This document shows positions 46,117-50,319 of a stretch of 64,000 nt of DNA, piece by piece (positions within the stretch are counted from its first letter, which is position 1; each line of letters opens with the position of its first letter). The notes beneath the pieces were generated by a model. It ran no database searches. It was not told the DNA's origin and worked only from the letters and a program-made list of their open reading frames with translations. This DNA is from Nitrosomonas sp. PY1 (GTDB taxonomy: Bacteria; Pseudomonadota; Gammaproteobacteria; Burkholderiales; Nitrosomonadaceae), in the NCBI RefSeq assembly GCF_022836435.1, contig NZ_BQXC01000001.1, positions 1,376,121-1,440,120 of the forward strand. The letters run 5' to 3'. The position numbers and the translations under genes were made by a program.

Positions 46117-47316
46117 TTAAAATCTATGGCGTATACCAACAGTCCATGTGTTTCTGTCGCGATCCTTGATATTGCTTTGATCGTCAACATTGACTCTTTG
46201 GTAACCACCAAAAATGGATGTTCTTTTAGATAAATTATGGATAGCGCCCAGGGTAAAATTTTCAGAATTTTTCTTATGCAGCGCATCAACCGCATGTGCG
46301 ATGGTCATCCCTCCTTGTGCAACGAAGCTAGTGTTACCCCACATATACTGACCGCTCGTAAACCAGGTGTAACCATCCCCGCCGGGATTCATAGCAGAGT
46401 TACATTGCCGAGTGGGATCTCCAATATCACCAAGGGCTGCGGCGTTAGAGCACGTTGCCGCACCTAATGCATTGCTTATCCTTTCAAATTGTCCCTGAAG
46501 TTGGTAATTTTTATATGCCCATACCCCTCCGATTCGACCTACTTCTTCGGTTCTAAGGTGAGCGAAAGGATTGTGTTTTTGCTGAGAACTGGCGTTGTCT
46601 CTGGAATATCCGCCGAATATAGCTAACCTGTGATCCAAGTAATGAAACTCATATTTCGTGCCTAATTGAACATCCCATTCGCCATTAGCTCCACCCGTGT
46701 TTCCAATGTTATTGCCAGCTCCCCCAAGTAATCCGCCTAGATTTGCTTCTAAGCGACTGGAATCGCCCGGCATAAGCATGGCAGCAAACGTAAAGCCATT
46801 GAAATTCACTGAATCGAATCGTAAAACGCTGTTGACAGCAGTATAAGCTCCAGATCCCAATCCATTTGCGCTGGCAATCATCGCTCCACCGCTTCCAGCA
46901 GCTTGTAAAGCAGTGTAAACAAGTGGATCAATGGTCCAACCGCCAATATAATCAGCGAAAAGTGAATGAATTCTCCCAAACTTTAGAATTCCAAGCGAGT
47001 CTTTGGAAAAAGCGACATACTGTTCTCGCGCCCCGGTTGGACTACCTGTTCCGGTACTAAAACCCCAATCTATCATGCCAATCGCCTTTAGTCCGTTTCC
47101 TAGATTTTCTGAAATACGAAGCCCCCAGGATGAAAAAAAGGTTGGATCATTTAAAGCTGTTTGACTAGAAAATCCTTCGACATGCACCGCATGGTATTCC
47201 GACTGTAAACGCCCAGTGATTACTAACTTGGTCCCAACAGCATAATCAATGGGTATTAGTAAAAATAACAAGCCAAAAACTAAGCTTCTAGCAATTCTTT
47301 GACACATAAATAACAC
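46117..47316 (-). CDS. Gram-negative porin
   Basis: A 399-residue trimeric-porin-type outer-membrane protein. A signal peptide (~1-28, ending VDYAVG-like YAVGT) is followed by KLVITGRLQSEYHAV, the usual first strand of betaproteobacterial porins. LKFGRIHSLFADYIGGWTID marks the eyelet loop region, and the C-terminus WTVGIRHRF ends in the Phe needed for BAM insertion. It is divergent from the beta-propeller operon and shares with it a 317-base promoter region containing a duplicated operator-like motif. Confidence 0.9.
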   Translation of the reverse strand: MLFMCQRIARSLVFGLLFLLIPIDYAVGTKLVITGRLQSEYHAVHVEGFSSQTALNDPTFFSSWGLRISENLGNGLKAIGMIDWGFSTGTGSPTGAREQYVAFSKDSLGILKFGRIHSLFADYIGGWTIDPLVYTALQAAGSGGAMIASANGLGSGAYTAVNSVLRFDSVNFNGFTFAAMLMPGDSSRLEANLGGLLGGAGNNIGNTGGANGEWDVQLGTKYEFHYLDHRLAIFGGYSRDNASSQQKHNPFAHLRTEEVGRIGGVWAYKNYQLQGQFERISNALGAATCSNAAALGDIGDPTRQCNSAMNPGGDGYTWFTSGQYMWGNTSFVAQGGMTIAHAVDALHKKNSENFTLGAIHNLSKRTSIFGGYQRVNVDDQSNIKDRDRNTWTVGIRHRF

Positions 47317-47633: not shown

Positions 47634-49013
47634 ATGACCAAAAGAAAGAGCTTGACAAACATTATTGCTATATTATCAGCATTGGGTATAGCAATATTCG
47701 CAACTGGAATTGCTCTTGGTGAAACGGGGAGAGCCGCAGTGCCGGATCAATTGAACATTGCACCACCTCAATATCCGAACGTTTATAACAATTATCTTCA
47801 GCCAGTAGCAACGGCCATCGACTACTATAATGGTATGTTGTATCTGATCAACTATGACAATGATAAGCTGATCATCATCAACCCAACCAGTTTAAATGGA
47901 TGGCCAGGTAATGTTCCTTTGCAACATACGCTGGTATTGCCAGAGGGTAACAAATTCTACGTAACCTCTGACAATACGAAAGAGCATCCTTCTTATATCA
48001 TTGCTTTAAGAGTTAATAGCATTGATTGGGATAATAAAAGCGCTGTCATAACGGTTGAGTCAGTAATGGCCGCGGATACTCCGGACAATCCAAGTGAATT
48101 GCCGCATGTTGAAGCGATCAATAACAGACAACCGATTCCAAATTGGTTAGTAGGTCGTGGTACGCAAATTCACGGTCCAACAATACTGCCTTACTCTGAC
48201 TACATATACTTTACCGAATTTACTTCGGATAGAGTGCGTGTGGTTAACCACAAAACCAATGAGTTAGTAAGTGGTGTAGATCCTATTGTGATACCGGGAT
48301 ATACCGAGCAAACGCATGGGGTAAATTTTAATCGCTCTGGAAGTGTAGGCTTGGGAACTGGGTATTTTTTCGATAACAACATCATTGATATCTACAAGCC
48401 AAATCGCGAAACAGGAGAATTACGTGCTGTTGGTCAAATTATGTTAGGAGATGAAAAACAATATGCTGCATTAACGCACTTCACCTATTGGATCGATGAA
48501 CGCTATGCTGTCACTGCTACAATGCAATTTGATAAAACTTCTCTGACCCCTTCTAATACACGAAAAATTATTCCACCAAGTGTTTGGTTGTTGGATACAC
48601 AGGAAGCCACAGCGAAGAAAATTGTTTCCCAAGCAAAAAACGTTAATGGACATGGCGTTTTTCGTTCACCCTCTGACATATCTATTGTCAATGGAAAGCT
48701 ATATATCGCGGAAGAAGACTCATTGGACAATACGTTTGCTGAGGATGGATATGTTTCGGTATTTGATTTATCCGATCGCAATCATCCAAGATTTATCAAA
48801 CGTCTAGGACCCAATCAAGGCTTTCCTCCTGGATATGCAGTAGCTCATACCATTGCTCCGACAGCAGACAATCGCTTCTTGTTGGTAGCCAGTTGGGTAT
48901 CCGGTTATGTCGTAAAAATCGATACAGCGACAGATACTGTCGTCAAAGTTTGGGGCCCGGAAGATGGCTTGGTTAAACCACATGGTATCTATGCGTCCGG
49001 CGGTTTGCGTTAA
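47634..49013 (+). CDS. Exported beta-propeller protein with regularly spaced His, putative metalloenzyme
   Basis: A 459-residue protein with a signal peptide (to about residue 35). The rest is repeated short strands typical of a YVTN/NHL-like seven-bladed propeller (YLINYDNDKLIIINPTSLNG; YVVKIDTATDTVVKVWGPED). Histidines recur once per blade in similar settings: H180 (TQIHGP), H228 (QTHGV), H282 (LTHF), H340 (NGHGV), H405 (VAHTI) and H450 (KPHGI). A ring of His at one mouth of a propeller is how nitrous-oxide reductase holds its copper cluster, but no N2OR motif (such as DVHHPH) is present. A Sco1 copper chaperone follows immediately, so a copper enzyme is plausible. I do not recognise the family. 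Confidence 0.78.
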   Translation: MTKRKSLTNIIAILSALGIAIFATGIALGETGRAAVPDQLNIAPPQYPNVYNNYLQPVATAIDYYNGMLYLINYDNDKLIIINPTSLNGWPGNVPLQHTLVLPEGNKFYVTSDNTKEHPSYIIALRVNSIDWDNKSAVITVESVMAADTPDNPSELPHVEAINNRQPIPNWLVGRGTQIHGPTILPYSDYIYFTEFTSDRVRVVNHKTNELVSGVDPIVIPGYTEQTHGVNFNRSGSVGLGTGYFFDNNIIDIYKPNRETGELRAVGQIMLGDEKQYAALTHFTYWIDERYAVTATMQFDKTSLTPSNTRKIIPPSVWLLDTQEATAKKIVSQAKNVNGHGVFRSPSDISIVNGKLYIAEEDSLDNTFAEDGYVSVFDLSDRNHPRFIKRLGPNQGFPPGYAVAHTIAPTADNRFLLVASWVSGYVVKIDTATDTVVKVWGPEDGLVKPHGIYASGGLR

Positions 49014-49108
49014 ACTCACGTTGTATTAGCTCGATCCGGCTTGTGCAAAATTCCCATGAGCCGGGTCTCCTGAACTCCAGAATTAGCAAACCACAAAAGG
49101 ATTGCCAA

Positions 49109-49708
49109 ATGAAAACCTCGATTCAAAAGCAAAAGATCCTGTTGCTACTGATAATGACCGCTTGGGGATTATTGATACAACTTGATGTTCAATCAGCTAC
49201 TGTTATCCTAACCCGCCCAATAGCCTTGCAAGATAACGTGATCTCCTTGTTAAATAAAGCGCACGGAGCGGAAAAGCAACAATGGAAACTTGTCGTATTT
49301 GGGTTTGTTCATTGCAAAGATGTTTGTCCCTTATCGCTAGCCAATTTAGCTTTAATCGTAAAAGCTGCGGCACAAGAGAAAATCAACTTAGACGGTATTT
49401 TTGTAACAATCGATCCGGATAGAGACACGGCAAGCGTTTTATCTCAATATACAGAGAGCTTTGGTCCCAATGTAGGATACCTAAGATTGGAAGGAGAGAA
49501 ATTAGATTCTTTCAAAGCCACTTTTGGTGTCGAAACCATTTTTTATACCAAGAACGAAGGGAATCTCAATCATTATCAGGTTGATCATAGTACCTCAGCA
49601 TTTTTGATAGACCCGGAAGGAAAAATAAGAGTAATGTTTGATGCACTTAAAGATGCCAATAATATTACTCGCTTATTTGTTGATAAACGAACATTATTCT
49701 CAAAATGA
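49109..49708 (+). CDS. Sco1/SenC-type copper chaperone
   Basis: A 199-residue thioredoxin-fold protein that delivers copper to periplasmic enzymes or reduces their Cys. ATG 49109 is chosen because AAAGG lies just upstream and a signal/anchor helix then starts at once (ILLLLIMTAWGLLIQL). The copper ligands are all present: Cys69 and Cys73 (VHCKDVCPLS) and His160 (VDHSTSAFLID). IFVTIDPDRDT is the family core. The stop overlaps the next start (ATGA), and the propeller gene lies 95 bases upstream. The context points to a dedicated role in maturing the propeller protein rather than cytochrome oxidase, though that is inference. Confidence 0.9.
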   Translation: MKTSIQKQKILLLLIMTAWGLLIQLDVQSATVILTRPIALQDNVISLLNKAHGAEKQQWKLVVFGFVHCKDVCPLSLANLALIVKAAAQEKINLDGIFVTIDPDRDTASVLSQYTESFGPNVGYLRLEGEKLDSFKATFGVETIFYTKNEGNLNHYQVDHSTSAFLIDPEGKIRVMFDALKDANNITRLFVDKRTLFSK

Positions 49709-50319
49709 AATCTCTCTTGATCATAGCAATATTATTACTCGCAGCAACAAATATTAACGCAATGGAAATTAACCGAGATCCTCGCACAATCATTTCTTTT
49801 CGGGATAATTCAATATCGCCAGAGCTTGATATACTGAGGGTTACAACCGATATTTCCAATGATGAGCAGTTGTTATTCCGGATAAGAAATAGAGGGGAGT
49901 CAACCGAAGGCAATGAAAATAATTACTTTATCTTAAGTATGTTACATAACAAGCATTATTTTTTAGTTGTACCGCTTAATACACAACAAGAAAGTATCGT
50001 GTCAATTTATGAAACATCCTTAGAGAACCCCGATCTATCCTTATCGCAAGATTACTCATCGACTCAAGAAAAAGATTTAACAGTAGCGATGAGCCGAATT
50101 ACAAACGGAGTCGTATTTTCTGTTCCCATCGCTTGGATTGATTTTAGCAAAAATATTGGCTTTGACGCTTATACTGCTAAGCTAATAAAGCAAGACAATA
50201 AAATGCAAGTTACGCATATTCATGATCAAGCTATTAAAAGTAAGACACAAGAGAAAATGTTCCCAGCAATAACGCTTTTTAACAAACTTTGCGCACCAAA
50301 ACGGCTAGCAGAGAAATAA
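49705..50319 (+). CDS. Secreted protein of unknown family, third gene of the propeller-Sco operon
   Basis: A 204-residue protein whose ATG overlaps the Sco stop codon by four bases, so translation is coupled. A signal peptide covers residues ~1-19 (MKSLLIIAILLLAATNINA). The mature part alternates polar and hydrophobic residues as in a beta-rich domain, has one Cys near the C-terminus and a THIHD segment. I cannot assign a family. Its conserved position suggests a subunit, partner or assembly factor for the propeller protein. Confidence 0.72.
   Translation: MKSLLIIAILLLAATNINAMEINRDPRTIISFRDNSISPELDILRVTTDISNDEQLLFRIRNRGESTEGNENNYFILSMLHNKHYFLVVPLNTQQESIVSIYETSLENPDLSLSQDYSSTQEKDLTVAMSRITNGVVFSVPIAWIDFSKNIGFDAYTAKLIKQDNKMQVTHIHDQAIKSKTQEKMFPAITLFNKLCAPKRLAEK

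Follow-up and report, generated by a model that had tools for sequence, protein, structure and literature searches.

The window analysed here is a stretch of 64,000 nucleotides from the genome of Nitrosomonas sp. PY1, which is about 2.85 Mb in size. It contains the genes coding for a secreted beta-propeller protein, a Sco/SenC copper chaperone and a small secreted beta-sandwich protein, with a porin gene divergent from them (Table 1). The initial annotation had described the three genes as plus-strand neighbours, the last two coupled by an ATGA overlap; the order and the strand were borne out by the open reading frames, and the coordinates of these frames confirmed the overlap. Export signals had been proposed for all three products, and a hydrophobic N-terminal stretch was indeed visible by eye in each of them, and for the propeller and the third protein this stretch was modelled as a helix. 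Comparison with the nearest homologue gave dN/dS values of about 0.08 for the propeller, about 0.08 for Sco and about 0.19 for the third gene; purifying selection acts on the three genes. The operon is conserved and unannotated, and no paper naming the propeller or the operon was among the matches listed in a search of the main texts of the open-licence literature. As an identity for the operon we also considered the norSY-senC-orf1 cluster known from ammonia oxidisers, which in N. europaea is given as NE0683-86 (PMC4940428). It was rejected: the product of the first gene here is a propeller, and a single place in the PY1 genome matches the third protein.

Table 1. Genes of the locus, in window coordinates.
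Gene	Coordinates	Strand	Remarks
Secreted propeller	47634..49013	+	459 aa; six invariant His (H98, H180, H228, H282, H405, H450); invariant C-terminal R459; twin-Arg absent at N-terminus
Sco/SenC copper chaperone	49043..49708	+	PF02630, 99.2 bits; alternative ATG start at 49109
Small secreted beta-sandwich protein	49705..50319	+	204 aa, no family; invariant Met20 and Cys196; ATGA overlap with Sco
Divergent outer-membrane porin (Porin_4)	46117..47316	-	PF13609, 79.3 bits; frequent operon neighbour, outside the conserved core

The co-occurrence of the three genes was surveyed over 35 loci from two phyla. A Sco gene was found downstream, on the same strand, of 34 of the 36 propeller genes, and the third gene accompanied 32 of the 36. 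The sole real exception was Nitrosospira NpAV (L059), with neither Sco nor the third gene in the 8 kb downstream of the propeller; the L074 contig stops 148 bases past the propeller, and at L047 and at the second copy in L073 the contig ends before there is room for a whole third gene. The four-base overlap between Sco and the third gene was present in 26/31 pairs with a measured gap, the Myxococcota loci L078 and L079 included, and of the other five pairs one (L062) deviates only because its start was misplaced. Within 101 related genomes, the third gene was found, whole or partial, in 18/18 propeller carriers; the sole match outside them was weak, covered 19 residues and came from one genome (G039).

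Several neighbours were seen around this core. A porin of the same family (Porin_4) stands beside 12 of the 35 propeller loci. A second neighbour family of about 450 aa, outer-membrane-like by eye and without a Pfam match, occurs at five Nitrosospira loci, namely L073 (13642-15003), L055, L057, L059 and L076; at L055, where about 1.6 kb lie between propeller and Sco, it is the gene placed between the two. Upstream of the operon at L068 (855-3743) lies a gene for a 962-aa protein with multicopper-oxidase domains, and relatives of it are located upstream in L065, L066 and L069. In one genome (G006) a third-gene fragment was found apart from the full operon and adjoining another member of the Porin_4 family (L043, 1293-1439); it may be what is left of a lost copy.

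The 18 carriers among the 101 related genomes all belong to the genus itself, which makes up 61 of these genomes; because the propeller is carried by 18/61 of them, with 43/61 unmatched, it is no core gene of ammonia oxidation. In wider samples it was present in 1/274 genomes of the class (PY1 itself), in 2/398 of the phylum (PY1 and G006) and in 3/235 of the phylum to which the Myxococcota MAGs belong. The same three MAGs were recovered by the genome-contig scan, whose 35 loci came from Nitrosomonas, Nitrosospira, Nitrosovibrio, two loosely named proteobacterial MAGs and these Myxococcota; N. europaea is among the cultivated nitrifiers with the propeller. Two copies were found in G006, N. multiformis Nl7 (L073) and N. 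halophila (L067, L080). In a midpoint-rooted tree the Myxococcota propellers grouped in a single supported clade, which a long branch set apart. A search for ammonia monooxygenase matched 0/3 of the Myxococcota genomes, with the control genomes also unmatched.

We then aligned 33 propellers, down to 53% identity and with those of Myxococcota included. Exactly six histidine residues were invariant (Table 1). The initial annotation had listed one histidine per blade at H180, H228, H282, H340, H405 and H450; five of these stood in 33/33 sequences, but H340 is a histidine in only 9/33 and H98 had been missed. Its remark that four of the residues are followed by Gly did not hold for the invariant set, in which three precede Gly. 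Of the two peptide patterns that yielded the genome-contig homologues, one contains H228, so that the invariance of this residue there is partly by construction; the same six residues were nevertheless kept in 17/17 propellers of an independent set from a whole-protein search. On the sequence-to-strand map of the predicted model the histidines were not scattered: each lies at -1 to +2 residues from the start of an inner strand, and each in a separate blade, with the inner strand starting at 345 devoid of an invariant histidine. Random draws of six invariant positions reproduced such a placement in 0 of 1,000,000 trials, the -1 to +2 range and the choice of inner strands having been set after seeing the data. 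From this strand placement in a predicted model we infer the true geometry, in which the six histidines would form a ring.

The Sco product scored above the PF02630 cut-off of 22.8 bits and thus belongs to the SCO1/SenC family. As claimed initially, all the Sco copper ligands are present: C69, C73 and H160, numbered from the ATG at 49109 (C91, C95 and H182 from the GTG start), were invariant in 28/28 aligned Sco sequences. The PY1 genome has four SCO1/SenC genes over the cut-off, so the linkage need not mean that this Sco is exclusive to the propeller; two others lie side by side at 1572760-1573646 of their contig and another at 1680137-1680445. Histidines of propellers can also hold metals other than copper, as with zinc in PAL lyase and iron in carotenoid oxygenases, and Sco proteins can act as thiol oxidoreductases. 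The histidine set might accordingly bind Zn, Ni or Fe next to a Sco working as a thiol-disulfide protein; this is quite improbable, given that the three copper ligands of Sco are kept throughout and that the 33 aligned propellers have no invariant Cys, hence no conserved disulfide client there, although the third protein does have one. It is also unlikely, although the frequency of the Sco linkage would agree with it, that the propeller is a protein for copper storage, sensing or transfer and not an enzyme, with a histidine set that buffers copper and a Sco that exchanges copper with it. In the 33 sequences 135/459 positions are invariant, many Trp, Asp, Glu, Gln and Arg among them, a pattern that would suit an active site better than a buffer, and the absence of a match in most genomes of the genus also speaks against such a role.

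The propeller matched no Pfam or NCBIfam family above cut-off, and profile searches gave no confident match to any non-metal propeller family. The score against the YVTN repeat of NCBIfam (TIGR02276) was 21.9 bits, below the cut-off of 27.85, and a profile of the propeller family gave five PDB matches at E up to 10, with YncE weak at E 8e-4 and thiocyanate dehydrogenase (TcDH, 5F75) absent among the five. An AlphaFold2 model built from the 33 sequences had a propeller fold, with a pLDDT of 83.0 and a pTM of 0.82 for the best of five models (mean pLDDT over the five from 64.5 to 83.0). Fold comparison ranked generic YVTN and lactonase propellers first, with Z of about 29-32 (31.8 for 1l0q and 31.2 for the 6-phosphogluconolactonase 6nau), before SBP56 2ece (Z 28.1 over 336 residues, the longest alignment among the 50 matches listed), thiocyanate dehydrogenase (Z 26.3-28.2 over 321-325 residues) and the nitrous-oxide reductase 5i5j (Z 27.1 over 306 residues). 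As the scores of generic propellers equal or exceed those of the copper enzymes, the fold by itself gives no information on copper. The weak sequence scores and the top structural rows would suit a metal-free propeller of the ordinary YVTN/YncE or lactonase type; yet the YVTN/YncE sequence matches are confined to about residues 318-437, and such a protein would leave the invariant inner-strand histidines and the Sco linkage unexplained, which makes this reading very unlikely.

The nearest known kind of protein are the copper propellers, namely nitrous-oxide reductase (N2OR), TcDH and methanethiol oxidase. The propeller was, as initially stated, devoid of the SBP56 and N2OR motifs: it matched neither PF05694 (SBP56) nor PF18764 (nos_propeller), for which the PY1 genome gave 0 matches against 14/114 and 12/114 positive class genomes, respectively, and in 33/33 propellers the sequence is QH (Q97-H98) where the comparison families show HH, a motif present in 5/5 and 6/6 SBP56-type sequences. 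Alignment with hhalign to N2OR and SBP56 was not significant, with probabilities of 0.7-1.7% for the whole propeller and of 0.1-16.9% for single blades. On account of the sequence profiles and the missing HH pair, the new propeller is outside the families of N2OR, TcDH and methanethiol oxidase, and the initial proposal of an undescribed propeller family with conserved inner-strand histidines and a linked Sco gene is supported. In six class genomes we also observed a distant SBP56-like group (L118-L123; about 155-173 bits versus >590 for the main group) with HH kept, possibly another uncharacterised copper propeller.

N2OR sequences from 11 genomes showed nine invariant histidines, of which we take the first seven to be the propeller ones. 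Histidine contexts of the two proteins are alike by eye (AIHGLRVQKVPYTKYVF, SPHGLN and EPHD in N2OR; TQIHGPTILPYSDYIYF, QTHGVN and KPHG in the new propeller), the nearest pair being AIHGLRVQKVPYTKYVF and TQIHGPTILPYSDYIYF; the H180 blade, by eye the most N2OR-like, was placed elsewhere by hhalign, off the N2OR histidines. The seven CuZ histidines of N2OR include an HH pair, whereas the new propeller has six with Q97-H98, and from the chain order the N2OR residues would fall in blades 1 (HH), 2, 4, 5, 6 and 7 versus 1, 2, 3, 4, 6 and 7 here. The new protein ends with the propeller domain and has no room for CuA. NosZ is exported by Tat; a twin-Arg pattern was found in 1/33 propeller rows (L069), some of which (L049 and L058, for example) begin downstream of their own signal.

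TcDH from Thioalkalivibrio (5F75) is a periplasmic propeller of seven blades whose central tunnel contains three copper ions (PMC9456337); it is Tat-exported and encoded near copCD or Cus genes, and its active site has 13 residues including H135, H136, H206, H381, H437, H482, H528 and R544 (PMC6504805, Figure 4 legend). The new propeller shares the seven-bladed fold, though generic propellers score higher. Compared by spacing alone, the last two active-site histidines of TcDH are 46 residues apart, against 45 for the last two invariant ones of the new propeller, and both proteins have an Arg near the C-terminus. They differ in the HH pair of TcDH, in its Tat signal, which has no twin-Arg counterpart in the window propeller, and, as far as the chain order without superposition suggests, in a blade 5 histidine in TcDH (blades 1, 2, 4, 5, 6 and 7, as for N2OR) versus one in blade 3 here.

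Methanethiol oxidase (MtoX) is described in PMC5739008 as a copper-dependent periplasmic propeller with a signal peptide, encoded in an operon with SCO1/senC and mauG, and with His89, His90, His140 and His412 as putative Cu ligands; for human SELENBP1, PMC10362175 implicates four His together with one Asp and one Glu. Relative to these descriptions, the Sco gene in the operon is the likeness. The differences are the four putative ligand histidines versus six invariant ones, and the mauG gene, in place of which the new operon has the gene for a beta-sandwich protein without family.

This third protein had no Pfam family match, and its model is a beta-sandwich with a pLDDT of 83.6. The best structural match, the ethylbenzene dehydrogenase gamma subunit 2ivf_C, was marginal (Z 8.3, with an antibody next at 7.8), so that a heme role would be speculative. 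Met20 was invariant in 31/31 sequences (the window and 30 homologues) and lies directly past the apparent signal-peptidase site; if this site, placed by eye, is correct, Met would be the first residue of the mature protein. Cys196 is its one invariant Cys.

Taken together, we propose, with a probability of roughly 70%, that the operon specifies a copper-dependent oxidoreductase of the periplasm along with a copper chaperone of its own, where copper, catalysis and substrate are what we infer. The new propeller may well represent a new branch of the copper His-ring propeller enzymes. The protein would be exported through a Sec-type signal, as the lack of a twin-Arg in the window propeller suggests, and would fold in the periplasm, where the adjacent Sco would load it with copper. 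The six histidines, one from each of six blades, would surround the central channel at one of its mouths and bind a mono- or multinuclear copper centre there. A small substrate might enter through the outer-membrane porins often encoded alongside and be oxidised at this centre, with the electrons passing to a soluble cytochrome c; the beta-sandwich protein would, at a guess, aid maturation or electron transfer.

As a first guess by analogy, the substrate might be a small reduced sulfur species of the thiol, thiocyanate or thiosulfate type, put first because methanethiol oxidase and TcDH both oxidise sulfur compounds, with a nitrogen oxide second. The thiocyanate route is weakened by the rarity of cyanase, a user of the product of thiocyanate oxidation, which was found in 1/61 genus genomes (G047, a propeller carrier). 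A rival to this substrate guess only, and rather doubtful, is a copper enzyme whose substrate, in the periplasm of ammonia oxidation, would be a nitrogen oxide such as NO, N2O or a species derived from hydroxylamine. It draws on the names of 32/35 loci, which are Nitrosomonas (most of the named ones), Nitrosospira, Nitrosovibrio or proteobacterial MAGs, and on the histidine contexts that resemble N2OR by eye; the remaining loci, however, are of Myxococcota, the presence in 18/61 genus genomes argues against a core step, and the propeller has neither the HH pair nor space for a CuA domain. The coexistence with NirK speaks against it as well: 14/18 carriers have a NirK-type match >180 bits, three have none and one has a fragment only. 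The propeller was also considered as a simple substitute for NirK, since 3/5 NirK-less genus genomes carry it, but the 14 carriers with NirK, besides the one with a fragment, make a simple replacement unlikely.

The known copper propellers that bear such histidines, N2OR, TcDH and methanethiol oxidase, each govern one step in nitrogen or sulfur cycling. Returning to the copper oxidoreductase that we favour, we tentatively suggest, at less than even odds, that it represents a further class of His-ring copper propellers, with a ring set on blades 1, 2, 3, 4, 6 and 7 unlike that of the three known enzymes, a copper centre assembled in the periplasm by a dedicated Sco, and an unrecognised redox step in ammonia-oxidising bacteria. 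If true, the propeller scaffold would have taken on copper sites repeatedly, its Sco would be one that probably serves a single client, and an unknown periplasmic reaction would take place in the bacteria that drive nitrification.
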